Shown: in pieces, positions 8,672-25,123 of the stretch
Layout of the letters: each line of letters starts with the position of its first letter
Position numbering within the stretch: position 1 is the first letter of the stretch
Source: Tsukamurella pulmonis
Lineage (GTDB): Bacteria; Actinomycetota; Actinomycetes; Mycobacteriales; Mycobacteriaceae
NCBI RefSeq assembly: GCF_900103175.1
Contig: NZ_FNLF01000002.1
Coordinates: 3,610,136-3,674,135 of the forward strand
Reading direction: 5' to 3'
Length of the DNA stretch: 64,000 nt
Translations under genes and position numbers: made by a program
The notes under the pieces: generated by a model
Told to the model about the DNA's origin: nothing
The model's database searches: none
The model's input: only the letters and a program-made list of their open reading frames with translations

Positions 8672-8698
8672 AATCGACTCTATTGGTTAGAGTCGATT
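8672..8698. promoter_or_regulatory. Perfect 11-bp inverted repeat with back-to-back -10 elements (birA/accD5)
   Basis: Arms 8672-8682 and 8688-8698 are exact reverse complements around the 5-nt centre TTGGT. Each arm contains TAGAGT on one strand: 8688-8693 on plus, ending 7 nt before the accD5 ATG at 8701, and 8682-8677 on minus, pointing at birA. The element therefore combines two opposed -10 hexamers in one palindrome. A symmetric regulator bound here would act on both genes. No regulator is identified. Confidence 0.6.
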
Positions 8699-8700
8699 GC

Positions 8701-10356
8701 ATGACGAGTGCCTCCACCACCGACGGCGCCTCCGGCGCCGGTGACAACGCTGACGCCGCGCCCAGCATCCACACCACCGCCGGCAAGCTGGCGGCCTTCC
8801 GCGCGAAGGACGCCGAGGCCCTGGCCCCGATGGGCCAGGCGGCGATCGACAAGGTGCACGAGAAGGGCCGCCTCACGGCCCGCGAGCGCGTGCTGGCGCT
8901 GCTCGACGAGGGCTCCTTCGTCGAGCTCGACAAGCTGGCGCAGCACCGCTCCACCAACTTCGGCATGGCGGCCCGCCGCCCCGTCGGCGACGGCGTGGTG
9001 GCCGGCTACGGCACCATCGACGGCCGCGAGGTGTGCGTCTTCAGCCAGGACTCGACGGTCTTCGGCGGCTCGCTCGGCGAGGTCTACGGCGAGAAGATCG
9101 TCAAGGTCATGGACCTGGCCACCAAGACCGGCCGCCCGCTGGTCGGCATCATCGACGGTGCCGGCGCGCGCATCCAGGAGGGCGTGGTCTCGCTCGCCCT
9201 GTACTCGAAGATCTTCATGCGCAACACCCAGGCCTCGGGCGTCATCCCGCAGATCTCGGTGATCATGGGCGCGGCCGCCGGCGGCCACGTCTACTCCCCC
9301 GCGCTCACCGACTTCGTCGTGATGGTCGATCACGAGAGCCAGATGTTCATCACCGGCCCGGACGTGATCAAGTCCGTGACCGGCGAGGAGGTCACCAAGG
9401 AGGAGCTGGGCGGCGCCCAGACCCACATGACAAAGTCCGGCACGGCGCATTACGTCGCCTCGGGCGAGCAGGACGCGCTCGACTACGTGCGCGAGCTGAT
9501 GACCTACCTCCCCTCGAACAACCGCGCCGAGGCGCCCCGCTTCGTGCCGACCGACCCGCTCACGGGCTCGATCGAGGAGTCGGTCAACGACGAGGACCGC
9601 GAGCTGGACACGCTGATCCCGGACTCGCCGAACCAGCCGTACGACATGCACGAGGTCATCCGCCGCCTGCTCGACGACGACGAGTTCCTCGAGATCCAGC
9701 CGCAGCGCGCGATGAACATCATCGTGGGCTTCGGCCGCATCGACGGCCGCAGCGTCGGCCTCGTCGCCAACCAGCCCACCCAGCTGGCCGGCTGCCTCGA
9801 CATCGACGCCTCGGAGAAGGCCGCCCGCTTCGTGCGCTTCTGCGACGCCTTCAACATCCCGATCGTCACCCTGGTGGACGTGCCCGGCTTCCTGCCCGGC
9901 ATCGGCCAGGAGTACGACGGCATCATCCGCCGCGGCGCGAAGCTGCTCTACGCCTACGGCGAGGCCACCGTCCCGAAGATCACCGTGGTCACCCGCAAGG
10001 CCTACGGCGGCGCGTACTGCGTGATGGGCAGCAAGGACATGGGCGCCGACATCAACCTGGCGTGGCCCACCGCGCAGTTCGCGGTGATGGGCGCGTCCGG
10101 CGCCGTCGGCTTCGTCTACCGCAAGGAGCTCGCCGCGGCCGCCGAGGCGGGCGAGGACGTCGAGGCCCTGCGCCTGAAGCTGCAGCAGGAGTACGAGGAC
10201 ACGCTGGTCAACCCGTACGTGGCGGCCGAGCGCGGCTACGTCGATGCGGTCATCCCGCCCTCGCACACCCGCGGCCAGATCGTCACGGCGCTGAACATGC
10301 TCGAGCGCAAGGTGGTCGCCACCCTGCCCAAGAAGCACGGGAACATCCCGCTGTGA
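8701..10356 (+). CDS. accD5: Acyl-CoA carboxylase beta subunit (propionyl-CoA type)
   Basis: A 551-residue carboxyltransferase of the AccD5/PccB type. It transfers CO2 from carboxybiotin on AccA3 to acyl-CoA, giving methylmalonyl-CoA (and malonyl-CoA) for mycolate and methyl-branched lipid synthesis. The two crotonase-like halves show the acyl-CoA pocket ([26 protein letters not shown]) and the carboxybiotin pocket ([37 protein letters not shown]). The ATG at 8701 is supported by a -10 element ending 7 nt upstream, which implies a leaderless message; no Shine-Dalgarno is present. Its stop overlaps the accE5 start. Confidence 0.96.
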
Positions 10357-10625
10357 GCGCGAACGACAAGCCGGTGCAGGCCAGCGCGGCCGACGTCGAG
10401 AAGCTCAGCGCCGCCATCCGGTTCGAGAAGGGCAACCCGTCGGCCGAGGACGTCGCGGCCGTCGTGGCCGTGCTGGCCGCCGCGGCCGGCTCCGCGCCGC
10501 AGACCGGCCCGGAGGGCCCGAAGTCGATCTGGGGCGACAACCGCGAGCGCATGCGCCCGCAGTACTTCAACGGCCCCAACGCCTTCACCAGCCAGACCCC
10601 GATCTTCTGGACCAAGGGGTCCTGA
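10353..10625 (+). CDS. accE5: Acyl-CoA carboxylase epsilon subunit
   Basis: A 90-residue small subunit that stabilises the AccA3-AccD5 complex in actinobacteria. The C-terminal half carries the family pattern [11 protein letters not shown], followed by [15 protein letters not shown]. The N-terminal half is Ala/Val-rich ([15 protein letters not shown]), as expected for the helical part. The GTG overlaps the accD5 stop (GTGA), so the subunits are translationally coupled. The maf-like gene begins 11 bp downstream. This order matches Rv3280-Rv3282. Confidence 0.92.
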
Positions 10626-10636
10626 TCTCCACCCCC

Positions 10637-11275
10637 GTGCGCCTGGTGCTCGCGTCGGCCTCGCCGGCGCGGTTGGGGGTGCTGCGCGCCGCCGGCACCG
10701 CGCCGCTGGTCTCCGTCTCCCAGGTCGACGAGGACGCGATCCTCGCCGGCCTGGGCCCGGACGTGACCCATGGGGACGCCGTCGAGGTCCTGGCCCGGGC
10801 CAAGGCCCAGGACGTGGTGGACCGGATCGTCGCGGTGGACCCGATCCCCGGCCGCGCCGTGGTGATCGGCTGCGACTCGATGCTGTCGATCGACGGTGAG
10901 CTGGTCGGCAAACCGCACACCGCCGCCACCGCGACAGCGCGGTGGCGGGCCATGCGGGGCGGTACCGGCCGCCTCCTCACCGGGCACTGCGCGATCCTGC
11001 TCGAGGACGGCGCCGTCGCGAGCACCGTCACCGGGACCCGTTCCACGACACTGCGGTTCGGGACGCCCACGGACGCCGAGATCGACGCCTACGTCGCGAC
11101 CGCCGAGCCGCTCGAGGTGGCCGGAGGCTTCACCCTGGACGGGCTCGGCGGCTGGTTCGTCGAGGCGGTGGACGGCGACCCGAGCTCGGTGATCGGCATC
11201 TCGCTGCCCCTCACCCGGGCGCTGCTGGGTGAGCTCGGCGTCTCGCCCGTCGAGCTGTGGTCCGACCGGCCTTGA
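10637..11275 (+). CDS. maf: Maf-family nucleotide pyrophosphatase
   Basis: A 212-residue Maf-like nucleoside-triphosphate pyrophosphatase that removes non-canonical or methylated nucleotides from the pool. [16 protein letters not shown] at the N-terminus is the triphosphate-binding SxSPRR-type motif. GCDSML (Asp in the metal site) with GKPHT forms the central Maf signature, and [13 protein letters not shown] is the conserved C-terminal loop. The GTG at 10637 is 11 bp after accE5. In M. tuberculosis the next gene is sseA; here about 9 kb of acyltransferase genes intervene. Confidence 0.93.
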
Positions 11276-11541
11276 AAGTTCACCAGCATGATGTGAGAGA
11301 CCTCATAGGTTTGGGCCCGTCCTCCGCGTAATCATCTCGTTAACAGCGCGCGATCATCGCGTTTCCGCAGCTCGGGCGACACACTCCACACTTCAATCAC
11401 GTACGGCGTCCGACCTGCAAGAACACCGAAGTATCCCCTAACCCGCGCTTCCGCCAACCCTGGTCAAGACCTGAACCGAGTGACGAGCGACACCACTCTT
11501 TCGCCTCGCGAAAGGAATGCCTCGCGTCTTAGCGTCATCAC
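11276..11541. promoter_or_regulatory. 266-bp intergenic promoter region of the acyltransferase locus
   Basis: Less GC-rich than the flanking genes. Two palindromes are visible: 13 bp at 11349-11361 (CGCGAT-C-ATCGCG) and 17 bp at 11498-11514 (CTTTCGC-CTC-GCGAAAG). A -10-like TAGCGT at 11530-11535 ends 6 nt before the ATG at 11542. The 11498-11514 palindrome covers the -35 region of that promoter, where a repressor would block it. No ORF is supported in this stretch. Confidence 0.55.
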
Positions 11542-12474
11542 ATGACCACGACGCCTGGACCACTCACCACCCCCGGAGCCCCGGTCCCCCACGCCGCGAC
11601 CCGCGAGGTGGACGGTTGCTCGTTCGCCGTGCGCGGCCGGATCGACGTGACCGCCCTGCGCGCGGCGTACGCGGCCCTGCTCGAGGAGTACCCCGCGCTC
11701 GCCGCCCGCGTGACGGCCGAGCACGATCGCTTCCGGTTCGCCCCCGGCGATCCGGCGGTCGCCGCGGCGATCGGCTTCCGCGACACGGCCGCACCGTGGG
11801 CCGGCTTCGCGCAGACGCCGCCGTCGTTCGTCGGGACCGAACAGCTCTCGGCCCTGTGGCTCACCGGCATCGGTGAGGAGAACCGCCTCACCCTGTGGAT
11901 CAGCAGGGCCGCGGCGCAGCCGGTGGGCGTCCTCGCCCCGGCGCGCCGCCTGTTCGAGTTCTACACCGCGCTCGCCGCCGGCGACCGGCCGCGCGTGCAC
12001 CGCCCGATCGGCGTGCGCGCCTTCGGTTTCCCCACCGAGCCGCAGCGACTTCCCGCCGCCGGCGGCCGCCCGGCCCGGGAGCCGGAGGGTGCGCGCACGG
12101 ACGACGCGCTGCGCCTGCGCCTCGACGCGCGCACCACCGCCGACCTGCTGGACACCGCGCGGGTGCGGGCGATCCCCCTCGGCGAGCTGGTCGGCGAGCT
12201 GCTCGACCGGGCCGGGGCGCCCGTGGGCCGGATCGAGGACCTGGGCACCGTCGGCGCGCCGGTCGCACCCGCGAACCTCGAGGTCCCGGACTTCCACTCG
12301 CACCGCACCGCCGCTGCACCGCAGGAGGATTCGTACGTCCTGTCGGTCTTCGCCGGCCGCCTCTCGGTGGAGTTGCGGACCCGCCCCGGCACGCCCGCCG
12401 CGGAGTCCGAGCGGCTCCTGCTGCGGATCGAGGACGAGATCCGCAGCCTGCTCCCCGTCGGCACCGCCGCCTGA
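11542..12474 (+). CDS. Short condensation-superfamily protein with a lost catalytic motif
   Basis: A 310-residue relative of PapA/WS-DGAT acyltransferases, clearly shorter than the 444-486 residues of its neighbours. Family features: the N-terminal strand-helix unit (AVRGRIDVTALRAAYAALLEEYPALAARV) and the helix after the active site (ARRLFEFYTALAAGD). The position where relatives carry HxxxDG reads SRAAAQPV (residues 121-128), so both the catalytic His and the Asp are missing. It is probably not an active transferase; a structural or regulatory partner is possible. First gene of the locus, with an ATG 6 nt after a -10 hexamer. Assignment to the superfamily rests on pattern and context. Confidence 0.7.
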   Translation: MTTTPGPLTTPGAPVPHAATREVDGCSFAVRGRIDVTALRAAYAALLEEYPALAARVTAEHDRFRFAPGDPAVAAAIGFRDTAAPWAGFAQTPPSFVGTEQLSALWLTGIGEENRLTLWISRAAAQPVGVLAPARRLFEFYTALAAGDRPRVHRPIGVRAFGFPTEPQRLPAAGGRPAREPEGARTDDALRLRLDARTTADLLDTARVRAIPLGELVGELLDRAGAPVGRIEDLGTVGAPVAPANLEVPDFHSHRTAAAPQEDSYVLSVFAGRLSVELRTRPGTPAAESERLLLRIEDEIRSLLPVGTAA

Positions 12475-12531
12475 CATCCCGTCGCCCACCGCCGGACCGC
12501 ACCACCCCCGCACCGCACCAGGAGGAACGTC

Positions 12532-13971
12532 ATGGAATACACCGAACTGGCCGACTACCCGCTCACGACCGGCGTCGTCACCGAGTGGATCCCCGTGGTC
12601 GTCGATCCCGATACCGGCTGGCGCGCCGATCACCGGCCGCCGAGCCACAACCAGGCGGACCACGTGCGGCGCGCGGCGCACCACGAGACCACCGTCGTGC
12701 GGCCGGGCGAGTGGATCGGCGGGGTCTGGCAGATCGACGAGGATCTCGACGAGGACGCCCTGCGCCGGGCCCTGCGCGGCTGGTTCGGCCGCCACGAGGC
12801 CTTCCGCAGCCTCATCTCGCACGCCGAGGACGGCACCCTGCTGCGCACCACCACCCCGCCGGAGTCGATCGACTTCGTCGCGCAGAGCGTCGGCAAGCTG
12901 ACCACCTCGCTGCGGGTCTATCAGCACCTGAAGAACTACTTCGACGCCACGATCACGCCCTCGCGCTGGCCGCACTGCGTGCTCGCCACCGTCGACAACC
13001 CGGCGGGCCCCGGTTTCACCATCGTCTTCGGCGCGGACCACTCCGTGATGGACGCCTACACCCAGGTGCTCGCCATCAGCGAGCTCACCGAGCTCTACCG
13101 CGCGGAGCGGGCGGACCGGCCCGCCCGGCTGACGCCGTCGAGCAGCTACCTCGACTTCTGCGCGCTGGAGCGGGATCAGTTCGAGCACATCGACTTCGAG
13201 CACCCGGCGGTGCGCACGTGGCTGGACTACCTCGCCGAGGACGACGGGGAGTCGCCCCGCTTCGGCCTCCCGCTCACCGATCGCGACGCCCGCGCCAACC
13301 TGCGGGTCTTCCAGTCCAGCCTGTCCCTGCAGCTGCTCGACGTCGAGCGCACCGCCGCCTTCGACGCGGCCTGCAAGGCGGCCGGCGGCAAGGCGGGCAA
13401 CGGCGTGGTCGGCGCGTTCGCGCGGGCCGAGGCAGGGCTGACCGGCAGTGACCACGTGCGCTTCGTGATGCCGATGCATACCCGCTCGGAGGAGCGCTGG
13501 GCCACCTCCGCCGGCTGGTTCGTCGGCCTCATGCCGGTGGACCTGGCGCTGCCGGCCACCTCGGCGCTCAGCGCCACGCTGGAGTCGGTCGCGGACGCCC
13601 TGCGCCGCAACCGCGACGTCGTGCCGGTCCCGTACCCGCTGCTCTCGTCGATCGTCGAGGAGCGCACGGGCCGTGGGCTTCCCGCGCCGCGGTACGTGCT
13701 CAGCTACGTCGACGTCCGCTACGTCCCCGGTGCCGCCGAGTGGGGCGAGCAGAACGCCGCGGTGCTGCGCTCGGAGTGCACCGCCGACGACGAGCTCTAC
13801 ATCTGGATCAGCCGCTCGCACACGGGCCTGTACTTCTCGGCCCGCTTCCCGTCGAACCCGGTCGCCTCGGCGAACGTCTTCCGGCTCATCGCCGCGCTGC
13901 GCGAGCAGCTGGCCGAGGTGATCGACCACGCCAGCGACGTCCCCACCGCCCTGACCGGCCACGCCGGCTGA
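12532..13971 (+). CDS. PapA-like condensation-domain acyltransferase (DHSVMDA variant)
   Basis: A 479-residue protein of the polyketide-associated (PapA) branch of the condensation superfamily. These enzymes move acyl chains from CoA or carrier proteins to sugar or alcohol hydroxyls. The opening MEYTELADYPL is shared with the 21726 paralogue (MRFTELDAYPL), as are the RHEAFRS segment, the active-site strand and the late GWFVGL motif. The active site is GADHSVMDAY with His170 and Asp174, but the usual Gly is Ala175. Preceded by a strong Shine-Dalgarno (AGGAGGAACG). 57 bp after the first gene and 14 bp before the next. Confidence 0.85.
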   Translation: MEYTELADYPLTTGVVTEWIPVVVDPDTGWRADHRPPSHNQADHVRRAAHHETTVVRPGEWIGGVWQIDEDLDEDALRRALRGWFGRHEAFRSLISHAEDGTLLRTTTPPESIDFVAQSVGKLTTSLRVYQHLKNYFDATITPSRWPHCVLATVDNPAGPGFTIVFGADHSVMDAYTQVLAISELTELYRAERADRPARLTPSSSYLDFCALERDQFEHIDFEHPAVRTWLDYLAEDDGESPRFGLPLTDRDARANLRVFQSSLSLQLLDVERTAAFDAACKAAGGKAGNGVVGAFARAEAGLTGSDHVRFVMPMHTRSEERWATSAGWFVGLMPVDLALPATSALSATLESVADALRRNRDVVPVPYPLLSSIVEERTGRGLPAPRYVLSYVDVRYVPGAAEWGEQNAAVLRSECTADDELYIWISRSHTGLYFSARFPSNPVASANVFRLIAALREQLAEVIDHASDVPTALTGHAG

Positions 13972-13985
13972 TCCCGGGAGGAACC

Positions 13986-15377
13986 ATGCGCGTCACCACC
14001 ATCGACGGCCTGCGCACCGCGCCCGGCCGGTACCTGGAGTTCCCCGTCGTGCCGACGGGGACCGCCGTCCCCAGCGACGTCCCCCCGTGCTTCAACCAGC
14101 AGTCGCACCTGCGCGCCGCGGACGGCGACGACTCCTCCCCGGGCACCTGGCTGTGCGGCGTCTTCGACGTCGACGGTCCCATCGACGAGGAGGCGCTGCA
14201 GGAGGCCTTCCAGCGCCTCGTCGACACCCACGCGACGCTGCGCTCGCAGTTCGCCGTCGCCGACGACGGGGCGCGCACCCCGCAGCGATCGGTGCACCCG
14301 GCGGGGAGCATCCGGGTGGGCGCGCCCGTCGCCGAGCACGCCGAGGACGAGGCACAGCCGTCCGTGCGTCTGCGCGGCCGGCTCGACGAGCAGTGCCGCC
14401 CCCTGCGCTTCCCGAACTACGTCCTCGCGGCGATCAGCCGGCCGGGCACCTCGACGATCGTCTGCGGCTTCGACCACGTCCACGTCGACGCGCTGTCGCT
14501 GGCCATCGCGATCGACGAGGTGGCGGCCGCCTACGCGGGCGTCGCGCCCGCGGTGTCGGTCCCGGGCGACGGGCACCTCGACTACTGCCGTGAGGAGGCG
14601 GCCGCCGAGCAGGTCGATCCGCACGATCCGCGGCTGGCCGAGTGGATCGAGTTCCTCGCCGACGCCGGTGGCCACGCCCCCGAGTTCCCGCTGGAGCTGG
14701 GCGTCCCGATCGGGGAGAGCGCACCGCAGCACAGCGCCGAGGTGCTGCTGCTCGACGCCGACGAGGCCGAGGCCTTCTCCGCGGCCACGGCGCGGGCCGG
14801 GGGCACCACCTACGCGGGGCTGCTGACGGCGCTGGCGATGGCGACCCACGCGGCCGGTGGTTCGGACCTGCTGCCGCTGACCTTCCCCGCGCACACCCGC
14901 TACGACGAGCGCTACGCACGTGCCCTGGGCTGGTTCGTCACCAGCGCCCCGATCACCGTCTCGGTGCACGACGACGGCCGGCCGGCCGATCCGTGCACGC
15001 TCTTCGAACGCAGCGTGGCGCTCACGCAGCAGGAGTTGCGGCGCGCCCGCGACCGGGCCGACGTGCCGCTCGGCCAGGTGATCGCGGCGACCACCGGCGG
15101 ATACCGGCCCCGGCGCCAGGACGTGTTCATGGCCTCGTACCTGGACTACCGTCGGATCACCCAGGGCGACAGCGGGTTCGGTACGAACCGCACGCACGTC
15201 TCCAACATCACCCGGTGCGACGACGTCCAACTGTGGTTCTCCCGCACGCACGACGGCGTCTCGGTGCGCACCCGCCACCCCGACACCCCGCAGGCGCACC
15301 GCACGATGCGCACCGTCCTGCAGTCCCTGCGCTCCACCGTGGCCGTCGTCGCCGTCCCCCAGAAGTGGGCCGCGTGA
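13986..15377 (+). CDS. PapA-like condensation-domain acyltransferase (DHVHVDA variant)
   Basis: A 463-residue PapA-like acyltransferase. The active-site strand reads GFDHVHVDAL with His164 and Asp168; the family Gly is again Ala (169). Other shared features are THATLRSQF in the N-terminal domain, TFPAHTRYDERYARALGWFVTSAPI (described in parts: HTRYDERY then LGWFVTS) and a late SYLDYRRI segment matching the family's conserved SxxDxR strand. Shine-Dalgarno GGGAGGAAC precedes the ATG at 13986. Its stop overlaps the GTG of the SGNH hydrolase gene (GTGA), so the two are coupled. Confidence 0.85.
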   Translation: MRVTTIDGLRTAPGRYLEFPVVPTGTAVPSDVPPCFNQQSHLRAADGDDSSPGTWLCGVFDVDGPIDEEALQEAFQRLVDTHATLRSQFAVADDGARTPQRSVHPAGSIRVGAPVAEHAEDEAQPSVRLRGRLDEQCRPLRFPNYVLAAISRPGTSTIVCGFDHVHVDALSLAIAIDEVAAAYAGVAPAVSVPGDGHLDYCREEAAAEQVDPHDPRLAEWIEFLADAGGHAPEFPLELGVPIGESAPQHSAEVLLLDADEAEAFSAATARAGGTTYAGLLTALAMATHAAGGSDLLPLTFPAHTRYDERYARALGWFVTSAPITVSVHDDGRPADPCTLFERSVALTQQELRRARDRADVPLGQVIAATTGGYRPRRQDVFMASYLDYRRITQGDSGFGTNRTHVSNITRCDDVQLWFSRTHDGVSVRTRHPDTPQAHRTMRTVLQSLRSTVAVVAVPQKWAA

Positions 15378-16201
15378 CGGTGGCCGGCCGGGCACCCGGC
15401 GACTGGGGCACGTACGTCGCGCTGGGCGATTCGCGCGCGGCGGCCCCCACGTGGTTGAGCCTGCTGCGCCGTGCCGACGGCCGCAGCGGCCGCGGCTACC
15501 CGCACGAGCTCGCGGCGCTGCTGCGCCCGGCCCTGTTCGAGGACCGCTCGTGCGTCGGCGCCACCACCGAGAACCTGCACCGTCGCGGCCAGGTGCGCTA
15601 TCAGGGGCTGCGCCGGGTGGTGCTGCCGCCCCAGGCCGACGCGCTGAGCGTGGAGACCGATCTGGTCACGCTCTCCATCGGCGGCAACGACATCCGCTGG
15701 CACTCGCTGATCGGCGGCGCCTTCTCCCACCGCCCCGGTGCCGCGGCGCGGTTCCGCAGCGACACCGACCGCGCGCGCCGCATCGACGCCGCGCTCACGG
15801 GCCTCGGGGCGCACCTCGCGGTGGCCCTCGCCGACGTCCGCGGCCGCGCGCCGGACGCGACGGTCCTGCTGGTCGGCCACGGCGGCTACTACCCGCTCCC
15901 CGACGCGGACGTCCCGCTGTGCGCCGCATCGGGTTCCGAGCTGGCGCTGCACACCGCGGCGGAGTTCTTCGAGGCGCTCGAGGACGTGTACCGCACCGCG
16001 TGCGACCGGACGGGCGTCACCTTCGTCTCGGTCCTCGACATCACCCGCGGCCACGACGGTGCCGCCCCGCGCTCCGAGCGCTGGTTCGAGGGGGACTCCC
16101 TCGTCTCGCTGACGCCGCCGCGCCATCCCACCGCGCTGGGGAGCGCGGCGCTCGCCGCGCACCTGGCGGCCACGCTCGCTCCCGAGGCGGTGCGGCCGTG
16201 A
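15374..16201 (+). CDS. SGNH/GDSL-type hydrolase, apparently cytosolic
   Basis: A 275-residue SGNH-family esterase or lipase. Block I is ALGDSRA with nucleophile Ser20. Block III is SIGGNDIRWH with oxyanion Asn105. The C-terminal catalytic His is probably His251 (RHPTALGSAAL). No signal peptide or lipobox is present: the GDS serine is only 20 residues from the start, unlike secreted relatives. The start overlaps the upstream acyltransferase stop and its own stop overlaps the exporter start, both as GTGA. The position suggests trimming or transfer of acyl groups on the locus's product before export, by analogy with the Chp hydrolases of mycobacterial PAT/sulfolipid loci. Confidence 0.82.
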   Translation: MTVAGRAPGDWGTYVALGDSRAAAPTWLSLLRRADGRSGRGYPHELAALLRPALFEDRSCVGATTENLHRRGQVRYQGLRRVVLPPQADALSVETDLVTLSIGGNDIRWHSLIGGAFSHRPGAAARFRSDTDRARRIDAALTGLGAHLAVALADVRGRAPDATVLLVGHGGYYPLPDADVPLCAASGSELALHTAAEFFEALEDVYRTACDRTGVTFVSVLDITRGHDGAAPRSERWFEGDSLVSLTPPRHPTALGSAALAAHLAATLAPEAVRP

Positions 16202-17679
16202 CGGCCGCGGCCACCCGGGCACAGCCCCGGATGAGCGACGGCGCCGCGGCGGCCCTGCTGGGCGTGGGCCTGCTGGTGCTGTTCATGGCCACCGTCGACG
16301 TGACGATCGCCAACATCGCGCTGCCCTCGATCCAGCGCGATCTCGGGCTCTCCCCCGCGCGGGGCATCTGGATCGCGGAGGCCTACGCGCTGAGCTTCGC
16401 CGCGTTCCTCATCCCCGGCGGCGCGCTGGGTGACCGGGTCGGTCCCCGCGCCGCGATGCTCGGCGGGATCTCCGTGTTCACCCTCGCCTCGATCGTGGTG
16501 GCGGCCAGTTCCGCGCTGCCGGTCCTGCTGGCCGGCAGAGTGTTCCAGGGCGCCTGCGCGGCGATGATCGTCCCCCAGGTCACCGCGATGGTCAAGCAGA
16601 TCCTGCCGGGCTCGTGGCGCGCCCGCGCGCTCTCGGCCGTGAGCGCCACGTCCGTCGCGGCCATCCTGCTCGGCCCCCTCGTCGGCGGCGGTCTGCTCGC
16701 GATCGACGCGTTCGGGATCGGCTGGCGGGCCGTGTTCTACGTCAACGTGCCGATCGGCGTCCTCGCCGTCGTGGTGCTCCTGGCGGCGCCGTTCCCGGCG
16801 CGCCCGCGGGCCGAGGACGGCGCCGATCCCCTGGACTGGGTGGGGCTCGCCCTGATGGTGGTCGCGATCACCGTTGCGCTGCTCGCGTTCTCGGGGCAGG
16901 CAGGCACGACGGAGCTGGTACTGTTCGCGACGCTGGCGGTGGCGGGCAGCGGCTTCCTGGCCTGGGAGCGGCATCTGCTGCGCAGCGGGTCCGCGCTGCG
17001 GCCGATCGTCGATCCGGACCTGTTCGCGAGCCCCAACTTCCGCTGGGGCGTGATCATCCAGCTCTTCGGGCAGGCCGCGATCGGCGGCTTCTACCTGTGT
17101 TTCACCCTGTACCTGCAGGACGGCCTGGAGCTGCCACCGCTCCGCGCGGGCGCGCTGCTCGTCCCCGCCGGGTGCGGCGCCCTCGGCGGCATCGCCCTGG
17201 GCATGGTGCTGGCGCGGGTGCCGGCGCGCCTGCTCATCATCGCGGGCGTGAGCGCCACGGCGGTGGGCTTCTCGGCGATGTTCGCGAGCATGGTCGCGGG
17301 CCTGGACGGTTCGCTGCCGCTGGTGATCACCTCGACGGTGGCCGCGGCCGGCCTCGGGCTGTGCGCGGCTCCCGCGCTCGGCGTGGTGCTCACCGACATC
17401 CCGGGGGCCCGCGCCGCCACCGCCACGGCGGTCTTCGCGGTGTGCCAGCAGACCGGCTCCGCGCTGGGGACCGGTGTGCTCGGCACGCTGTACGCGCGGA
17501 TGAGCGAGGGCGGTTCCGCCCGCACCGCGTTCAGCGCGACCGTCCTGCTGTGCGCGGTCCTCACCGCCCTGTGCGCGGTGTTCGCGCTCCGGCTCCGGCC
17601 CGGCGATCCCGCCGCCGGCCCCGACGCCGAGGCGTTCTCGACAACCGAAGGAGAAGTCCATGCCCATCCTGCGCGATGA
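16198..17679 (+). CDS. DHA2-family (14-TM) MFS exporter
   Basis: A 493-residue drug:H+ antiporter-2 type transporter. The first helix contains LFMATVDVTIANIALPSIQRDL (core: DVTIANIALP), the family's helix-1 motif D. GGALGDRVGPR is motif A between helices 2 and 3, and GRVFQGACAAMIVPQ is motif B. LGPLVGGGL and WRAVFYVNVPIG form the conserved motif C region. About 14 hydrophobic segments follow in sequence. The coupled position inside the acyltransferase block suggests it exports the lipid product, taking the role MmpL proteins have in comparable mycobacterial loci. The substrate is inferred from context only. Confidence 0.92.
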   Translation: MTAAATRAQPRMSDGAAAALLGVGLLVLFMATVDVTIANIALPSIQRDLGLSPARGIWIAEAYALSFAAFLIPGGALGDRVGPRAAMLGGISVFTLASIVVAASSALPVLLAGRVFQGACAAMIVPQVTAMVKQILPGSWRARALSAVSATSVAAILLGPLVGGGLLAIDAFGIGWRAVFYVNVPIGVLAVVVLLAAPFPARPRAEDGADPLDWVGLALMVVAITVALLAFSGQAGTTELVLFATLAVAGSGFLAWERHLLRSGSALRPIVDPDLFASPNFRWGVIIQLFGQAAIGGFYLCFTLYLQDGLELPPLRAGALLVPAGCGALGGIALGMVLARVPARLLIIAGVSATAVGFSAMFASMVAGLDGSLPLVITSTVAAAGLGLCAAPALGVVLTDIPGARAATATAVFAVCQQTGSALGTGVLGTLYARMSEGGSARTAFSATVLLCAVLTALCAVFALRLRPGDPAAGPDAEAFSTTEGEVHAHPAR

Positions 17680-18994
17680 CTGCCGTGCCAACCGAGTCAC
17701 CGACGACGACCGGACGATCGAGCTGGCGGGCGTGGTGCTCCGCGGACACCTGATCTCCCAGGCGACCTTCGACTACGCCACCGAGAACGCGCCCACGATC
17801 GCGGACCTGCGGCGCACCGTCGGGCACCTGGCGCGCGGACCGCTGAACCGGACCCTGCGCCGCTCCCCCGTGCCCGGCGCCCGCAGCTCGTGGCTGCCCG
17901 GACCGCCGACGGTGACCCTGCACCTGCGCGAGGAGCCCCTGGAACCCTCGTCGACGGTGGCGTGGCTGCAGGAGCAGCGCGAGCACGCCGGCGGCGACCG
18001 CGGCCTGGTCTCGGTCTCGCGGGCGCACCGCACCGACGGGCGCACCCTGGTCACCGTGCAGTACCCGCACACCGCCGCGGACGGCGGCGCGATGTACGCC
18101 GCACTGCTGGCCGCCTCGCGCGGCCTGAGCGGCGCGCGCACCCCCGACGAGCGGGCGCGCGCACCGCGGATCACCGACGACCTGGTGGACTCCGGGCGCC
18201 AGTTCCGCCGCCTGATCCGGACGGTGCGCGAGCGCGAGGCGCCGCGCACGCCGGTCCCGGCGGTCGAGCGTCCCGCCCCCGGCGGCGCTCCGGCCGGGGA
18301 CGGCCCCACCCCGCTCGTCGTGGCCCTGTCCACCACCGGGACCGCGTGGAAGGCGGCGGCGAAAGCCCGGTCCGCCAGTGGGAACACGCTTCTCGTGGCG
18401 TTCATGACGGACCTGCTGTTGAGCACCGAGCGGTACGCCGGGATCGACGCGGTGCCCACCAACATCCCGATCGACGTGCGCGCGGAGGGCTCCCGCGATG
18501 CGAACAACACCGCGTCGGTGACCGTCGCCGTCACCAGGGACGCGATCGAGGGCGATCTGGCGGGCCTGCACGCGACGATCAAGGCGGCCCTCGTCGCGAG
18601 CGGCAACCGGCCGGGCACGCAGCGGCGCTCGACGCCGCTGGAGGTGGCCGCGCACTTCATCCCCGACGCCCTGGTGGACCGGCTGGCCGGGCCGCACCCG
18701 CTGTCGATGCTCACGTGCTCGAACATGGGCGCCGTCGATCCGGACTTCCCGTCGCTGTTCGGGCCGGCGGCCGACCGGATCCTGATGGTGGCCGCGCCCA
18801 CCCCGGTCACCCCGGAGCGGCTCGCGCGCGGCGGTGGCGGGCTGGCCGCGTGGCTCGACATCGTCGGGGACACGCTCACGCTCAGCGTGGTCTGCCTGGA
18901 TCCGCTCGTCTTCGCCGATGCCGCCGACGCGCAGCGGCACCTCGCGGCGACCGCCGAGCGGTTCGGGATCGCCCCCGAGTTCTGGAACATCTGA
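17660..18994 (+). CDS. WS/DGAT- or PapA-like acyltransferase (PHTAADG motif)
   Basis: A 444-residue condensation-superfamily acyltransferase. The active site is QYPHTAADGGAM with His137, Asp141 and Gly142, so the catalytic motif is complete. The late segments PTNIPIDVRAEG and LTCSNMGAVDPDF correspond to the conserved VNxR and SNxG regions seen in wax-ester-synthase/DGAT and PapA5-type enzymes. It differs from the other copies in lacking the ADH strand and the GWFVG motif, so it is a different subfamily. The ATG lies 20 bp inside the exporter 3' end, with AAGGAG 5 nt upstream of it. Likely acyl-CoA:alcohol acyltransferase. Confidence 0.82.
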   Translation: MPILRDDCRANRVTDDDRTIELAGVVLRGHLISQATFDYATENAPTIADLRRTVGHLARGPLNRTLRRSPVPGARSSWLPGPPTVTLHLREEPLEPSSTVAWLQEQREHAGGDRGLVSVSRAHRTDGRTLVTVQYPHTAADGGAMYAALLAASRGLSGARTPDERARAPRITDDLVDSGRQFRRLIRTVREREAPRTPVPAVERPAPGGAPAGDGPTPLVVALSTTGTAWKAAAKARSASGNTLLVAFMTDLLLSTERYAGIDAVPTNIPIDVRAEGSRDANNTASVTVAVTRDAIEGDLAGLHATIKAALVASGNRPGTQRRSTPLEVAAHFIPDALVDRLAGPHPLSMLTCSNMGAVDPDFPSLFGPAADRILMVAAPTPVTPERLARGGGGLAAWLDIVGDTLTLSVVCLDPLVFADAADAQRHLAATAERFGIAPEFWNI

Positions 18995-19003
18995 GGAGGA
19001 ACG

Positions 19004-20371
19004 ATGATCGGTGCAGCACTGGATGATTGGCGTCCTCCGCAGGGAACCCTGATCGACTTCACGGCCACGGTCGGCGCGGGCGAGCAGCCCGCGGACGTCG
19101 GGCCCACCTTCCTGCAGGCCGAGCACCTCGCCGCGGCCGAGAAGGCCGAACGGCACACGGCCTACATCGGATTCGCGGCCGACGTGCGGGGCCGGGCGGA
19201 CGTCGCCGCGCTCACCGCGGCCGTGACCGACTTCGTGCGCGCCCACGAGTCACTGCGCACCCGGTTCGTGCGAGCGGGTGACGGCTGGGAGCGGCTCGTC
19301 ACGCCGGCCGAGGCGATCACCGTCGCCGCCGTCGACGCGGGCCCGGCGCCGGACGGCCCGGAGCTCACGGCGCGGCTGCGGGGACGCTTCTCGGAGGAGG
19401 CGACCGCGTGGCGGGTGCCCGGCGCGGTGATCGGTGCGATCGCCGGGGAGGACTCCTTCGGCCTGTACGTCGCGGCCGATCACAGCGCCACCGATGGCGC
19501 GTCGCTGCTGCTCGGGCTCAACGAGATCATCGTGCGCTACCGGGCGCACCGCGAGGGCACGAGCGCCCCGCTCCCGTCCGCGCTCGCCCCGCACTCGCAC
19601 GTCGCGCGCACCGAGCGCGACCGCACCGCGGCGACCGATCCCTCGGACCCCGCCCTGCAGGTCTGGCGCCGCGCGTTCACGGCCACCGGCGGCGGGCTCG
19701 AGCGGCTGCCGATCGACACGGGCCTCGAGCCGGGCGCATCGGCACCCGTGCAGGCCCTGCACCACCGGCTGCTCGACACGGACCAGGTCGCCGCGCTCGA
19801 GGCCTCGGTCGCCCCCGCGCGCCTGTCGGCGGCGCTCTACGCGGCCCTCGCCATCACCGACCACGCGCGCACCGGATCCGACACCTGGATGCGGGTCGTG
19901 GTCCAGGACCTGCGCCGCGAGTTCAGTTCCCCCGATGCGGATCTGAGCCTCACGCAGGGCTGGGTCGTCGGCTTCGCCCCGCTGCTGCTCGAAGGCCTGG
20001 CGGACAAGGAGCCCGCGCAGGTGATCGCCGACGCCGGGGAGGCCGTGCGCGCCGCGCGCCGGGCCGGCGCGATCCCCACCGCCGCCGCCCTCGGCGTCCT
20101 GTTCGCGGAGGGCACCGTCGACCCGGCCGCGGTCACCCGGCCCCCGCTCATCTCCTACCTCGATGCGCGGCCGGTGGCGTCGGCGCTGCCCGAGGTCGCC
20201 TCGTCGATGATGTTCCCGGGGGACGGGAGCACCGCGAACGTCTCGCTCTGGCTCACCCGGGAGTCCGGCGGCCTCGAGATCGGCGCGCAGTGCCCCGACA
20301 CCGCGACCGCCACGGCGGAGGTCGCCCGGTACGCGGAGGACCTGCGGGCGACGTTGGCGACCTTCGGGTGA
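19004..20371 (+). CDS. PapA-like condensation-domain acyltransferase (DHSATDG motif)
   Basis: A 455-residue acyltransferase with an intact active site, [11 protein letters not shown] (His160, Asp164, Gly165). Family features include [14 protein letters not shown] in the N-terminal domain, a [13 protein letters not shown] segment equivalent to the GWFVG motif of its relatives, and [10 protein letters not shown] for the conserved SxxDxR strand. Shine-Dalgarno GAGGAGGAACG, nearly identical to those of the 12532 and 13986 genes, precedes the ATG, 9 bp after the previous stop. It is the last gene of the block; sseA follows with its own leaderless promoter. Confidence 0.86.
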
Positions 20372-20381
20372 CCGCGCGCGC

Positions 20382-20397
20382 TAGGCTGGCGGACGTG
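20382..20397 (+). promoter_or_regulatory. -10 element and leaderless GTG start of sseA
   Basis: TAGGCT at 20382-20387 is followed by 7 nt and the sseA GTG at 20395. The geometry matches the other leaderless promoters in this window, and no Shine-Dalgarno is present. The promoter lies only 10 nt after the last acyltransferase stop, so the accessory block ends abruptly at the conserved gene's own promoter. Confidence 0.5.
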
Positions 20398-21288
20398 GCT
20401 ATCGAGACCGATCCGAGCGCGGAACTGCAGGACTACGCACACCCCGAGCGCCTCGTCACCGCGGACTGGCTGAGCGGGCACCTCGGTGTCCCCGGCCTGA
20501 AGGTGATCGAGTCCGACGAGGACGTGCTCCTCTACGACATCGGGCACATCCCGACGGCGCAGAAGGTGGACTGGCACCTGCACCTCAACGACCCGGTGAC
20601 CCGGGACTACATCACCGGCGAACAGTTCGCGGAACTCATGCGCAGCAAGGGGATCAGCCGCGACGACACCGTCGTCATCTACGGCGACAAGTCCAATTGG
20701 TGGGCCGCGTACGCGCTGTGGGTGTTCACGCTCTTCGGGCACCCGGACGTGCGCCTGCTCGACGGCGGCCGCGACAAGTGGATCAGCGACGCCCGCGACG
20801 TCTCGCTCGAGCAGCCCGAGTACCCGCGCAGCGACTATCCGGTCGTCCCGCGGGACGACTCGCGCATCCGCGCCTTCGCGGACGAGGTGCGCGCCGACAT
20901 CGGGCGGCGGGCACTGGTCGATGTGCGCTCGCCGCAGGAGTACACGGGCGAGCGCACCCACATGCCCGACTACCCGGAGGAGGGCGCCCTGCGCGGCGGC
21001 CACATCCCCACGGCCGTGTCGATCCCGTGGGCGAAGGCGGCCCGGCAGGACGGGCGCTTCCTCCCCCACGCCGACCTGCTCGAGGTGTACGGCGGACTGG
21101 ACCCGCAGGCGCCCGTCACGGCCTACTGCCGCATCGGCGAGCGCTCGAGCCACACCTGGTTCGTCCTCACGCACCTGCTCGGCTTCTCGGACGTCCGCAA
21201 CTACGACGGTTCCTGGACCGAGTGGGGCAACACCGTCCGGGCGCCCATCGTGCGGGGCGAGGAGCCGGGCACGGCTCCGGGCGCATGA
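20395..21288 (+). CDS. sseA: Thiosulfate sulfurtransferase
   Basis: A 297-residue tandem-rhodanese protein that transfers sulfane sulfur from thiosulfate to cyanide or thiol acceptors. The N-terminal rhodanese domain (residues about 20-140) lacks the catalytic Cys. The C-terminal domain carries the active loop CRIGERSSH with Cys245, preceded by [10 protein letters not shown]. Other family features are [24 protein letters not shown] (in parts: GHIPTA, DYIT) and [10 protein letters not shown] near the end. Its stop overlaps the sufE-like ATG by 4 nt. This matches Rv3283-Rv3284. Confidence 0.94.
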
Positions 21289-21704
21289 CGGCCGCCCTTC
21301 CCGCGCCGCTTGCGGAGATCGTCGACGACTTCGCCGGCGTCGGCGAGCAGGACCGGCTCGAGATGCTGCTCGAATTCTCCCGGGAGCTGCCCGAGCTGCC
21401 GGAGCACCTGAGTGCGGCGGCGATGGAACCGGTCCCGGAGTGCCAGTCGCCGCTGTTCCTGGACGTCGATGCGACGGATCCCGAGGCGGTGCGGCTGTAC
21501 TTCAGCGCGCCGCCCGAGGCCCCGACCACGCGCGGCTTCGCGTCGATCCTCGCGCAGGGCCTCGACGGGCAGCCCGCCGCCGCGATCCTCGCGGTGCCCG
21601 ACGACTTCCACCACGCCCTGGGCCTCGATTCCGTGGTCAGCCCGCTGCGGCTGCGCGGCATGTCGGCGATGCTGGCGCGGATCAAGCGCCGGCTCGCCGG
21701 GTAG
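21285..21704 (+). CDS. SufE-family cysteine-desulfurase partner
   Basis: A 139-residue SufE-like sulfur acceptor that takes persulfide sulfur from a cysteine desulfurase for Fe-S cluster assembly. The acceptor cysteine is Cys53 in VPECQSPLF, the SufE signature. The N-terminal [19 protein letters not shown] helix and the C-terminal [22 protein letters not shown] helix are also typical. The ATG overlaps the sseA stop (ATGA), so a rhodanese and a sulfur acceptor are produced together. The orphan PapA-like gene starts 21 bp downstream. Confidence 0.88.
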
Positions 21705-21725
21705 CCGCGCCGAGCGAGGCCCGCG

Positions 21726-23186
21726 ATGCGATTCACCGAGCTGGACGCGTACCCGCTGCGCCCGGGTGAACTGCGCAACTGGATCCCCACGACGGGCCCG
21801 GCGGCGCGCTGGCGCGACGATCCGCGCGCGACCTCGCACGTGCACGAGGCGCACCTGCGGGGCGCGCAGGCGGTGCTCGAGCGCCGCCACATCGACGGCG
21901 GCCGCGAGTCCTGGCTCGGCCTCGGCGTCGAGTTCGACGAGCCGCTGTCCATCCCCGGCCTGCGCACGGCGCTGCGGGCGTGGATCGACCGGCACGAGGT
22001 GCTGCGCACGCACGTCTTCCTCGAGGACGACAGGCCGCGCCGCCGCAGCGCGCAGACCGACACCGTCGACCTGCGGATCAGGACGGTGGGCACCTACCGC
22101 TCCACCGGTCCCCTGGCCGAGCAGCTGCTGGGGGAGTTCGACCGGTCGACGGCCCCGCTCACCTGGCCGGCGTACCTGTTCTCGACGGTCGCCCGCGAGG
22201 ACTCGTTCACCCTCTTCTTCGCCGCCGACCACTCCCTGCTGGACGGCTACTCGCTGATCCTGAGCCCGTACGAGCTGCGCGAGCTCTACCGCGAGGCGAT
22301 GGGCGGCGAGCCCGCCCGCCTGCTGCCCACCGGCAGCTACGTCAACTACTCGGACACCGACCGGCAGTCCGCGGACCGCGCCGGGGCGAGCCACCCCGCG
22401 GCGCAGATGTGGGACGAGTACCTCAGCGAGACCGGTTTCCGCCCCGATCCGTTCCCGATGCCGCTGCTGCCGCTGCGCGCCACAGAACTGGCCGACGAGA
22501 CCCGCGCGGCGCTCAGCCGCGACCCCGACGGCGTGCCCCGGCTCCCGCAGGGCGCGCTCAACTTCCACCTGCTCGACGACGACCGGGCCAACAACTTCAC
22601 CCGCGTCTGCTCGGAGTCCGGCGCCTCGATAGTGACGGGCGTGCTCGCGTGCATGGCCAAGATCAACACCGACCTCGGCTTCGGGCCGGTGTTCCGGTGC
22701 GCCGTCACCCGGCACACCCGCGACGCCGAGCAGTGGATCGCGGCGCTCGGCTGGTTCGTGGGTATCGCGCCGTTCCGGCTCGACACGACGGGTACCCGCA
22801 CCTTCGGCGAGCTGGCGCAGCGGGCGCAGTCGGCGTGGAAGCACTCCAAGATCGGCAGCACCCTGCCCTACCTGCGGATCGGGGAGGTGCTCGCCGAGGA
22901 GCCCGGCCGCTCCCAGGCGCCGCCGCCGCGCTTCGTCGTCTCCTTCATGGACACCCGCTCCGCGCCCGGCGCGGAGAGCAACGACGACGGCGGGGCCGGC
23001 GCGCTGCGCTCGCGGGACTACTCGATCGACGACGTCTACCTCTGGATGCTGCGCACACCGACGGGTCTGCACGTGGCCGCGCGCTTCCCCGGCTTCGACA
23101 CGGCACGCCGGAGTGTCACGCTCTACCTCGGCGCGCTACGTTCGATGGTGACCGAAATAGGCGATGCGACGGTTACTCGCGGGTAA
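21726..23186 (+). CDS. PapA-like condensation-domain acyltransferase, separate from the main block
   Basis: A 486-residue acyltransferase closely related in layout to the 12532 gene: both open with TEL-x-x-YPL and share RHEVLR, the active-site strand, LGWFVGIAPF and SFMDTRS. The active site is complete, FAADHSLLDGYS (His169, Asp173, Gly174). It lies between sufE-like and accA3, where M. tuberculosis has nothing, and is separated from the main block by sseA and sufE-like. It probably works with that block on the same lipid. A 21-bp gap from sufE-like suggests read-through transcription. Confidence 0.86.
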   Translation: MRFTELDAYPLRPGELRNWIPTTGPAARWRDDPRATSHVHEAHLRGAQAVLERRHIDGGRESWLGLGVEFDEPLSIPGLRTALRAWIDRHEVLRTHVFLEDDRPRRRSAQTDTVDLRIRTVGTYRSTGPLAEQLLGEFDRSTAPLTWPAYLFSTVAREDSFTLFFAADHSLLDGYSLILSPYELRELYREAMGGEPARLLPTGSYVNYSDTDRQSADRAGASHPAAQMWDEYLSETGFRPDPFPMPLLPLRATELADETRAALSRDPDGVPRLPQGALNFHLLDDDRANNFTRVCSESGASIVTGVLACMAKINTDLGFGPVFRCAVTRHTRDAEQWIAALGWFVGIAPFRLDTTGTRTFGELAQRAQSAWKHSKIGSTLPYLRIGEVLAEEPGRSQAPPPRFVVSFMDTRSAPGAESNDDGGAGALRSRDYSIDDVYLWMLRTPTGLHVAARFPGFDTARRSVTLYLGALRSMVTEIGDATVTRG

Positions 23187-23314
23187 CTGAACCCGAGTGG
23201 GGACTGTCAGCTGCGCCACAGGACCGTAGGCATAGACTGGTCGTTGACTGTGTTCTACGGGATACCCATGTCGGTGCGCGTTCCGGTGCGTACCGCAAGG
23301 AACAAGGAGATTGA
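23187..23314 (+). promoter_or_regulatory. accA3 upstream region
   Basis: A 128-bp region with a -10-like TAGACT at 23233-23238, which would give a leader of about 70 nt, and a clear Shine-Dalgarno AAGGAG just before the GTG at 23315. A TTGACT hexamer lies near 23244. Unlike accD5, accA3 thus appears to have a leadered message. Confidence 0.4.
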
Positions 23315-25123
23315 GTGGCAGCCCACGCTGACAAGAAGATCGAGAAGGTGCTGATCGCCAACCGTGGCGAGATCGCCGTCCGCGTCATCCGCGCCGCCCG
23401 GGACGCCGGCCTGACCAGCGTCGCCGTGTACGCAGAACCCGACGCCGACGCCAAGTTCGTGCGCCTGGCCGACGAGGCCTTCGCCCTGGGCGGACAGACC
23501 TCGGCCGAGTCCTACCTCGTCTTCGACAAGATCCTCGACGCCGCACGCAAGTCCGGTGCCGACGCGATCCACCCCGGCTACGGCTTCCTGTCCGAGAACG
23601 CCGATTTCGCGCAGGCCGTCATCGACGCGGGCCTGACCTGGATCGGGCCGTCGCCCGAGTCCATCCGCGACCTGGGCGACAAGGTGACCGCCCGGCACAT
23701 CGCCGAGCGGGCCAACGCCCCGATGGCGCCCGGCACCAAGGATCCGGTCTCCGGCGCGGACGAGGTCGTCGCGTTCGCCAAGGAGTACGGCGTGCCCGTC
23801 GCCATCAAGGCGGCGTTCGGCGGCGGCGGCCGCGGCATGAAGGTCGCCTACACCGTCGAGGAGATCCCCGAGCTGTTCGAGTCGGCCACCCGCGAGGCCG
23901 TCGCCGCCTTCGGGCGCGGCGAGTGCTTCGTGGAGCGCTACCTGGACAAGGCCCGCCACGTCGAGGCGCAGGTCATCGCTGACCAGCACGGCAACGTCGT
24001 GGTCGCGGGCACCCGCGACTGCTCGCTGCAGCGCCGCTTCCAGAAGCTCGTCGAGGAGGCGCCCGCGCCGTTCCTCACCACCGAGCAGCGCGACCGCATC
24101 CACCAGTCGGCCAAGGACATCTGCCGCGAGGCCGGGTACTACGGCGCCGGCACCGTCGAGTTCCTCGTCGCGGCCGACGGCCTGGTCAGCTTCCTCGAGG
24201 TGAACACCCGCCTGCAGGTCGAGCACCCCGTCACCGAGGAGACGGCCGGTATCGACCTCGTGCGCCAGCAGTTCCGCATCGCCGAGGGCAAGGAACTGAC
24301 CATCACGGAGGATCCCACTCCGCGCGGCCACAGCTTCGAGTTCCGGATCAACGGCGAGGACGCCGGCCGCGGCTTCCTGCCCGCCCCCGGCCCCATCACC
24401 GTCTACCGCGAGCCCACCGGCCCCGGCGTCCGTGTCGACTCCGGTGTGGACCAGGGCGACGTGATCGGCGGCCAGTTCGACTCGATGCTGGCCAAGCTCA
24501 TCGTGACCGGCGCCACCCGCGAGGAGGCGCTGGAGCGCTCGCGGCGCGCGCTGGCCGAGTTCGAGGTCGAGGGCCTGGCGACGGTCATCCCGTTCCACCG
24601 CCACATCGTCTCCAACCCCGCCTTCATCGGCGACGAGAACGGCTTCGAGGTCTACACGAAGTGGATCGAGACCGATTGGGAGAACCCGATCGAGCCGTAC
24701 ACCGGTGGCCAGGCCATCGAGGAGGACGACTCGCTCCCCCGCCAGAACGTGGTCGTGGTCGTCGACGGCCGCCGCGTCGAGGTCTCGCTGCCCGGCGAGC
24801 TCTCGCTCGGCGGTGGCGGCGCGGCCGGCGGCGCCGGCGTGATCCGTCGCAAGCCGAAGCCGCGCACCCGCGACCGCGGCGCCGGCGTGGCCGCCACGGG
24901 CGACTCGGTGACCGCGCCCATGCAGGGCACCGTCGTGAAGGTGGCCGTCGAGGACGGCCAGCAGGTCAGCGCCGGCGATCTGGTCGTCGTGCTCGAGGCC
25001 ATGAAGATGGAGAACCCAGTCGCGGCGCACAAGGACGGTGTCGTCACCGGCCTGGCGATCGAGCCCGGCACCGCCGTCACGCAGGGCACCGTCCTGCTCG
25101 AGATCAAGTCCGACGAGGCCTGA
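23315..25123 (+). CDS. accA3: Acyl-CoA carboxylase alpha subunit (biotin carboxylase + BCCP)
   Basis: A 602-residue fusion of biotin carboxylase and biotin carrier protein that supplies carboxybiotin to AccD-type transferases. The biotin carboxylase half shows [25 protein letters not shown], the ATP-grasp Gly-rich loop [11 protein letters not shown] and [16 protein letters not shown] Pro/Arg/Gly-rich linker near residues 500-530 leads to the carrier domain with biotinylated Lys564 in EAMKMEN. BirA and AccD5/AccE5, encoded upstream in this window, are its expected partners. The stop is followed after 4 nt by a small coupled gene. Confidence 0.97.

Follow-up and report, generated by a model that had tools for sequence, protein, structure and literature searches.

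Mycobacterial loci of the sulfolipid, diacyltrehalose (DAT), and phthiocerol dimycocerosate (PDIM) type carry a polyketide synthase (PKS), an acyl ligase (FadD), and MmpL beside their PapA acyltransferases. The sulfolipid locus has PapA1 and PapA2, and in the chemistry of PapA2 and PapA3 a conserved histidine deprotonates a sugar hydroxyl, which attacks the acyl-thioester. According to the available part of PMC4183827, PapA3 of Mycobacterium tuberculosis acylates positions 2 and 3 of trehalose in the cytosol, with MmpL10 and Chp2 coming later. For the succinic trehalose ester maker Rhodococcus sp. I2R, the accessible text of PMC8396431 describes a row of three papA genes with a fourth 1.5 kb further on; by BLAST, these are the closest homologues of the trehalose lipid synthase TlsA, with ~30% similarity. 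Rhodococcus papA genes are also listed in the available excerpts of PMC9229178 and PMC13206832. Outside the mycobacteria, little is known about the genes for biosurfactants and surface glycolipids of the trehalose and oligosaccharide lipid types, and genome papers, as far as their text was available, list papA without a defined locus. Here, we analyzed a block of seven plus-strand genes, A to G, at positions 11542-20371 of a 64,000-nucleotide stretch of Tsukamurella pulmonis DNA (the window), from a genome of 4.78 Mb in two contigs. An earlier reading of the same sequence, the original prediction, gave the same coordinates and proposed a new system of lipid assembly and export. We find a real, conserved, and selected cassette of acyltransferases and a major facilitator superfamily (MFS) transporter, which is a variant of the PapA glycolipid loci and not a wholly new system.

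Like the mycobacterial acyltrehalose loci, the block has enzymes of the PapA1/2/3 type, and the PapA3 of the DAT/polyacyltrehalose locus acylates trehalose from the cytosolic side (PMC4183827, part available). Compared with these loci, which have one or two acyltransferase genes, the block contains four to five, and it has an MFS protein in place of MmpL and a leaderless SGNH hydrolase in place of the periplasmic Chp2 (same partial source). A genome-wide search gave 21 ketoacyl-synthase, 48 AMP-binding, and 28 MMPL matches, none of which falls inside the window, and the mycobacterial combination of PKS, FadD, and MmpL beside PapA does not occur there. The original prediction of a multi-acyltransferase block that lacks local PKS, FadD, and MmpL and has an MFS protein in the exporter position is thereby supported.

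A PapA triad at a fixed site

Genes B (12532-13971, +, motif DHSVMDA), C (13986-15377, +, DHVHVDA), and G (19004-20371, +, DHSATDG) encode PapA1/2/3-type acyltransferases that match the Pfam Condensation model PF00668 (E 2.6e-15, 1.7e-16, and 9.9e-8, respectively) and are the B, C, and G members of a PapA triad. A further enzyme of this type, H (21726-23186, +, DHSLLDG), is linked to accA3. The profile of B, C, G, and H from two species has the PapA2 structure 6aef as its top match (E 1.5e-62, positions 3-450 of 460), followed by a nonribosomal peptide synthetase (NRPS) structure (E 1.4e-27), and the HxxxD residues His170 and Asp174 (B numbering) are invariant in 8/8 sequences of the four proteins. 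Five condensation-superfamily proteins had been counted in the block from the sequence; B, C, F, and G are intact, while A is shortened and has no catalytic motif, and H had been left out.

At E 1e-40, the B/C/G/H profile matches genes in 28 of 46 genomes of the family (19 of 31 genera). Three such genes lie head to tail, with gaps of at most 400 bases and up to 35 candidates scored per genome, in 12 of the 46 genomes and 8 of the 31 genera, which makes 14 triads in total. The triad stands at the accD5/sseA site together with glycosyltransferases in seven of the 12 (G020, G025, G031, G033, G050, G054, and G058), and triads away from accD5/sseA stretches were found in G021, G022, G043, G051, and G052, to which the second triad of G031 is added. 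In a 54-row tree, the window B falls within the triad-B clade (support 99/97), C within the triad-C clade (100/100), and G within the triad-G clade (100/98); the triad-C clade also includes another PapA of the window genome, on a long branch. The tree program warned of long branches meeting; nonetheless, the three triad clades span several genera each, in a tree that omits the B/C/G/H-type matches of loci L119-L123, L126, L129, and L131 and matches with fewer than 380 aligned residues.

Site maps were drawn for 40 loci, several of them sharing a genome, with 20 stretches chosen from strong F hits and 20 from PapA hits. Triad genes stand next to at least one flank in 15 mapped genomes of genera g6, g11, g17, and g19 (G286, G298, G147, G193, G255, G139, G129, G072, G031, G025, G020, G058, G033, G054, and G050), and PapA glycolipid cassettes occupy the interval from accD5-maf to sseA-sufE-H-accA3 in at least four other genera of the family. 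A GT28-like glycosyltransferase gene is present in 15 of the 15 and an F-type gene in 14, a count biased by the choice of ten of these genomes via F hits. An ABC-2 exporter pair occurs in eight, and the seven genomes that have no such pair all belong to genus g6; neither an ABC-2 pair nor an E-like match was seen in seven of the 15 within the stretch covered, where other transporter types were not looked for. The usual form of the cassette is the PapA triad in the order B-G-C with GT28, F-type proteins, and often an ABC-2 exporter, some cassettes also having GT2 and esterase genes. That cassettes of other genera at this site contain GT28 and in some cases GT2, ABC-2, and esterase genes points to a glycolipid.

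By tree and site maps, the window cassette has orthologues of B, G, and C at accD5-sseA, so that these genes are local members of a triad known at family level and the free-standing new system that had been proposed falls away. The gene order is B-C-D-E-F-G, i.e., the triad is split by D-E-F. No glycosyltransferase is found among A-G, and the three GT28 matches of the window's genome are distant and outside the window. The window cassette is thus unusual in having neither a glycosyltransferase nor an ABC exporter, in the added D-E pair, and in A. An MFS pump in the role of MmpL had been suggested; the comparison points instead to an ABC-2 exporter, if the MFS protein replaces anything. The mapped relatives are glycosyltransferase/ABC loci and not parts of a larger known PKS/NRPS cluster. 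In Rhodococcus sp. I2R, the group papA3-papA1-papA3-(gap)-papA3 is spaced on one strand like the family's B-G-C, sseA-sufE, and H, and the argument for an equivalent site is this spacing alone; the window triad is split by D-E-F, and the I2R lipids are tied to their papA genes by homology, not by mutation (PMC8396431, accessible text).

We consider it probable that the block is the form taken in Tsukamurella by a glycolipid-acylation cassette at a fixed site, which would multi-acylate a ready-made sugar, most likely trehalose, and whose product E would export. The same enzymes could also serve a product without sugar: as free-standing condensation enzymes, they would couple a small alcohol or peptide with acyl, hydroxy, or amino acids, and E would be the efflux pump for this product or for an antibiotic. 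The Condensation label that Pfam gives to B, C, and G, the NRPS condensation structures next in the profile search, the resemblance of E to antiseptic and antibiotic pumps, and the missing glycosyltransferase would agree with such a product. However, PapA2 is ahead of the NRPS structures by 35 orders of magnitude, no AMP-binding match lies in the window, no carrier-protein domain is among the Pfam matches of the block, and the GT28-like gene accompanies the triad genes throughout the mapped genomes (ten of 15 picked via F hits), and we regard a non-sugar product as unlikely.

The site is the more interesting result, since it is a fixed address at which alternative acylation cassettes are found within one genus and across genera. 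No published account of a PapA site at accD5-sseA was found in the open-licence literature on papA and trehalolipids of Tsukamurella, Gordonia, and Rhodococcus, as far as its text was available. A fixed address with compact alternative cassettes would allow prediction by synteny and tests that assign enzymes to acyl groups, and the window cassette is a small PKS-free set for direct tests of stepwise acylation and of glycolipid export by an MFS protein.

Alternative cassettes in Tsukamurella

Comparison of the gene block across relatives found its order kept in Tsukamurella sp. PLM1 (G009), with 68-86% protein identity. Among 16 Tsukamurella genomes, the accD5-sseA interval holds the A-G block in two (the window's genome and PLM1) and an array of PapA5-type genes matching A in 11; in two others (G010 and G012; loci L127 and L130) it measures 1.0-1.2 kb and contains accE5 and maf only, and in the remaining one (G011) a contig ends within the stretch, which holds an A-like match beside sseA. 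The alternative cassette at L118:7688-14830 has six genes in the order PapA5-type, PapA5-type, a 228-aa membrane-like protein, GT28, PapA5-type, and a 424-aa protein; similar loci are L119-L126, L129, and L131. The Pfam annotation, including GT28, refers to L118, and the other ten were judged by A matches and gene lengths. Neither the 228-aa nor the 424-aa protein of L118 has a Pfam match; the latter contains an HxxxDG motif and shows 20% identity in alignment with the F group. The alternative cassette resembles the window cassette in its site, in its leader (L118), in its several acyltransferases, and in a second gene of the parent type of A, but it differs in having PapA5-type enzymes, GT28, and the 228-aa protein and neither SGNH hydrolase nor MFS transporter. 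After maf, a 266-bp leader (11276..11541, +) precedes the first gene of both cassettes; it is conserved in blocks among the window, PLM1, and G013 (L118), though the downstream genes differ.

Gene A (11542-12474, +) encodes a shortened PapA5-like protein of 310 aa, which barely passes the PapA_C model (30.2 bits against a cut-off of 30) and has the HxxxD motif in neither the window nor PLM1. A full-length PapA5 family member would carry HxxxDG; in A, the motif is replaced and segments are missing in both species. A shows 46-49% identity to gene 2 of L118 in the matched stretches and aligns with it along both ends, whereas HAATDG and internal segments are lost in the same way in both species. 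A is a conserved protein derived from the second gene of the alternative cassette; it has no catalytic motif and is apparently catalytically dead. GC3-based gene calling had missed A in the window. A reading as a spurious frame or dying pseudogene was rejected in favour of a selected protein, as indicated by its codon-position GC, by codon-position differences of 54/58/103, and by its ratio of nonsynonymous to synonymous substitution (dN/dS).

Between the window and PLM1, dN/dS is 0.39 for A, 0.20 for B, 0.27 for C, 0.32 for D, 0.24 for E, 0.30 for F, and 0.29 for G, and 0.14 for H, with 15-codon stretches of fewer than five identical residues masked as presumed PLM1 frameshifts. All seven genes A-G are under purifying selection. 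These values, at a dS of about 0.5 in every gene including A, speak against the block being a decaying or silent leftover of a cassette replacement, of which A would be the first sign; all frames are open in the window, and PLM1 also has the three overlaps, its frameshift-like stretches in E and F aside. The lack of a catalytic motif and of protein parts in A and the occurrence of the block in only two of the 16 genomes would be expected of such decay, which we nevertheless hold to be highly improbable.

The dS between the window and PLM1 is 0.42-0.58 in the block, 0.48 in Lhr, 0.39-0.60 in sseA, H, and maf, and 0.20-0.24 in accD5 and accA3. A recent transfer between the two was rejected, since the block dS is like that of Lhr, sseA, H, and maf, which makes the block roughly the age of the split. 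Whether one clade gained the block a single time was judged from trees of Lhr and of the flank genes, in which window and PLM1 do not stand together: their sister grouping is rejected by Lhr (approximately unbiased test, p 0.015) and by the flanks (p 0.009), but not by the two jointly (p 0.094). The identical loss of HAATDG and of segments from A in both species suggests a single event, at about the parting of the two lineages or earlier, in which the window's cassette took the place of the alternative one or recombined with it. Swapping of cassettes is likely from these comparisons. Tentatively, the accD5-sseA interval might be a glycolipid "serotype" site of the mycolic-acid bacteria, comparable to capsule or O-antigen loci, where conserved flanks and a shared leader would allow whole cassettes to be swapped by recombination; the swap in the window's lineage would then have dropped the glycosyltransferase and ABC exporter, installed a dedicated MFS glycolipid exporter and a cytosolic SGNH acyl-editor, and kept the dead A as a needed non-catalytic partner.

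H is present in 16/16 Tsukamurella genomes, always between sseA and accA3, and is 96% identical to its counterpart in G013. It is a core gene of the site and may be its core acyltransferase. H occupies the same place in other genera too, cassette or not. Two further PapA genes lie elsewhere in the genus, one matched in 16/16 and the other in 14/16 genomes. With the variable occurrence of the cassette and the similar diesters of four species (PMC4365757, part available), this would fit a division of labour in which H and the other genus-wide PapA genes make trehalose diesters and the cassette adds species-specific acyl variation such as short chains or extra positions, in the manner of antigen variation. 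We think this division unlikely; it would refine rather than oppose the acylation of a sugar by the block.

The original prediction also drew on the adjoining accD5, accE5, and accA3 genes as a supply of acyl-CoA. This adjacency is weak evidence, since the genes stay linked even in loci that have no PapA in the accD5-sseA interval: the interval is nearly empty in L127, L130, L163, L175, and L176 and holds 2-3 kb of other DNA in L170 and L178.

Proteins F, D, and E

F (17660-18994, +, motif HTAADGG) has no hit in Pfam, even at E 0.1. A profile built from F and 21 relatives matches a PapA5-type structure in the PDB (E 8.4e-7) and condensation domains from E 3.4e-5 on, and His, Asp, and Gly of HxxxDG are invariant in 22/22 members of the group; by profile similarity and motif, F is assigned to the condensation/PapA superfamily. 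An assignment of F as WS/DGAT was not supported, since F has no WS_DGAT match and only two of the 22 members do (best E 0.0083). At E 0.001, F matches genes in 159 of 301 family genomes and 22 of 31 genera, and it thus represents an acyltransferase group that has no Pfam model in about half of the sampled family genomes. F-like genes often stand beside GT28 and ABC-2 genes, and tandem runs of them occur in L108 and L109.

D (15374-16201, +) is an SGNH/GDSL hydrolase (PF13472, E 2.6e-17) and E (16198-17679, +) a DHA2-like MFS transporter (MFS_1 PF07690, E 9.7e-44), as had been read from the sequence. The closest PDB entry of D is the phospholipase A1 4hyq (E 2.3e-8). In an alignment with ten chosen relatives, D retains the GDS, GGND, and His-Pro blocks of SGNH hydrolases, and the Asp of DxxH, present in 4hyq, is missing in D and in all ten. 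A loss of the catalytic Asp from D was accordingly rejected, the missing DxxH being normal for its nearer kin. D starts 13 residues before the conserved YVALGDS, whereas nine of the ten relatives have a longer N-terminal stretch (judged by eye, with starts chosen by script), and it holds few of the conserved cysteines of its relatives, also by eye. With no signal peptide on inspection, D is probably cytosolic. Among the matches listed from 249 genomes of the order, D has at most 45% identity apart from itself (at most 40% at full length), and a scan over the GTDB r220 contigs, from which the window's own record may be left out, returned a single locus, in Tsukamurella sp. PLM1.

E scores 167.5 bits against TIGR00711 (DHA2/EmrB), under the cut-off of 230.2, and its firm assignment is to MFS_1 rather than to this subfamily. 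Residues 15-435 align with QacA-, EfpA-, and EmrB-type structures and residues 19-490 with 7d5q. The structure matches are the antiseptic resistance protein QacA (3e-33), EfpA (8.1e-27), EmrB (8.5e-26), and the "putative triacylglyceride transporter" 8pnl (5.3e-16). By these scores, E is not nearer to lipid carriers than to drug pumps. At E 1e-70, no match of E was found in other genomes among 121 of the family, with PLM1 absent from the matches listed. In G038 (genus g24), the accD5-sseA site (L166:9194-14040) holds a pair of PapA genes together with an MFS gene that shares 31% identity with E. This is a single hint, by sequence, of a second pairing of MFS and PapA.

Proposed acylation and export, and gene layout

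From the cassette as observed, we infer its product and transport as follows. In the cytosol, B, C, and G, perhaps F, together with H, would transfer ordinary acyl groups stepwise from CoA to the hydroxyls of a ready-made sugar. Trehalose would be the most likely and simplest acceptor, because the block has no glycosyltransferase. D could trim or transfer acyl groups in the cytosol, and E, judged by its position, would carry the finished amphiphile over the inner membrane. A would no longer be an enzyme but may serve as a partner or scaffold.

Known lipids of the genus are consistent with such a product. According to the accessible parts of PMC4365757 and PMC9321207, four Tsukamurella species make similar trehalose diesters, in which one chain is C16-20 and the other C2-6, and T. 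tyrosinosolvens makes tri- and tetrasaccharide esters as well. Plain trehalose diesters would suit a cassette free of glycosyltransferases, and oligosaccharide esters one that bears GT28. The mycobacterial MFS proteins EfpA and Rv1410 are reported to carry lipids in the text available from PMC10802681 and PMC10576003. EfpA and 8pnl match E over most of its length, with scores no better than those of drug pumps.

Several points weigh against the acylation of trehalose by the block. Amides and esters on carrier proteins are further products of the superfamily. The diesters occur in several Tsukamurella species, while this cassette is present in only two of 16 genomes, and H or the two other PapA genes may make the known lipids and the cassette have a different role. 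Drug pumps are at least as similar to E as EfpA is, and the substrate of E cannot be read from the sequence. Furthermore, the acceptor sugar is deduced from relatives that bear glycosyltransferases whereas the block itself has none, F has no characterised relative, and the link to the I2R genes is one of spacing only.

The genes form a single-strand run of accD5, accE5, maf, A-G, sseA, sufE, H, and accA3. On the left flank, accD5 (8683..10356, +; PF01039, E 1.8e-203; start possibly at 8830) is 87-97% identical in those Tsukamurella loci where it is seen, and is directly followed by accE5 (10353-10625, +; ACC_epsilon PF13822, E 5.9e-16) and by the flank's last gene, maf (10637..11275, +; PF02545, E 1.3e-44). 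The right flank begins with the rhodanese gene sseA (20395..21288, +; PF00581, E 1.9e-31), directly followed by sufE (21276-21704, +; PF02657, E 1.2e-29), and ends with accA3 (23315..25123, +), whose closest models are biotin carboxylase and which has 97% identity in PLM1. A promoter and terminator scan found no sigma-70 consensus promoter at 10300-23400 despite the conserved maf-A leader.

The coordinates confirm the same-strand packing that had been noted, with GTGA overlaps at C/D and D/E and a 20-base overlap at E/F. All three overlaps are retained in PLM1, where the second is ATGA, and PLM1 has frameshift-like stretches in E and F. Near-identical Shine-Dalgarno sites, proposed for the block as a whole, are present upstream of B, C, and G (AGGAGGAAC / GGGAGGAAC); F has a different one (GAAGGAGAAG), none was seen for A, and the starts of D and E depend on the GTGA overlaps. 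Frameshift-like breaks in accD5, E, F, and Lhr of PLM1 (L033, L150/L151) suggest sequencing errors in that complete genome. In the window's genome, one MMPL gene appears three times with the same or nearly the same scores (G000:C1:53450-56251, G000:C2:925-3726, and G000:C2:134101-136902); these copies, at a contig start, 130 kb further on, and on the small contig, represent repeated DNA or an assembly overlap.

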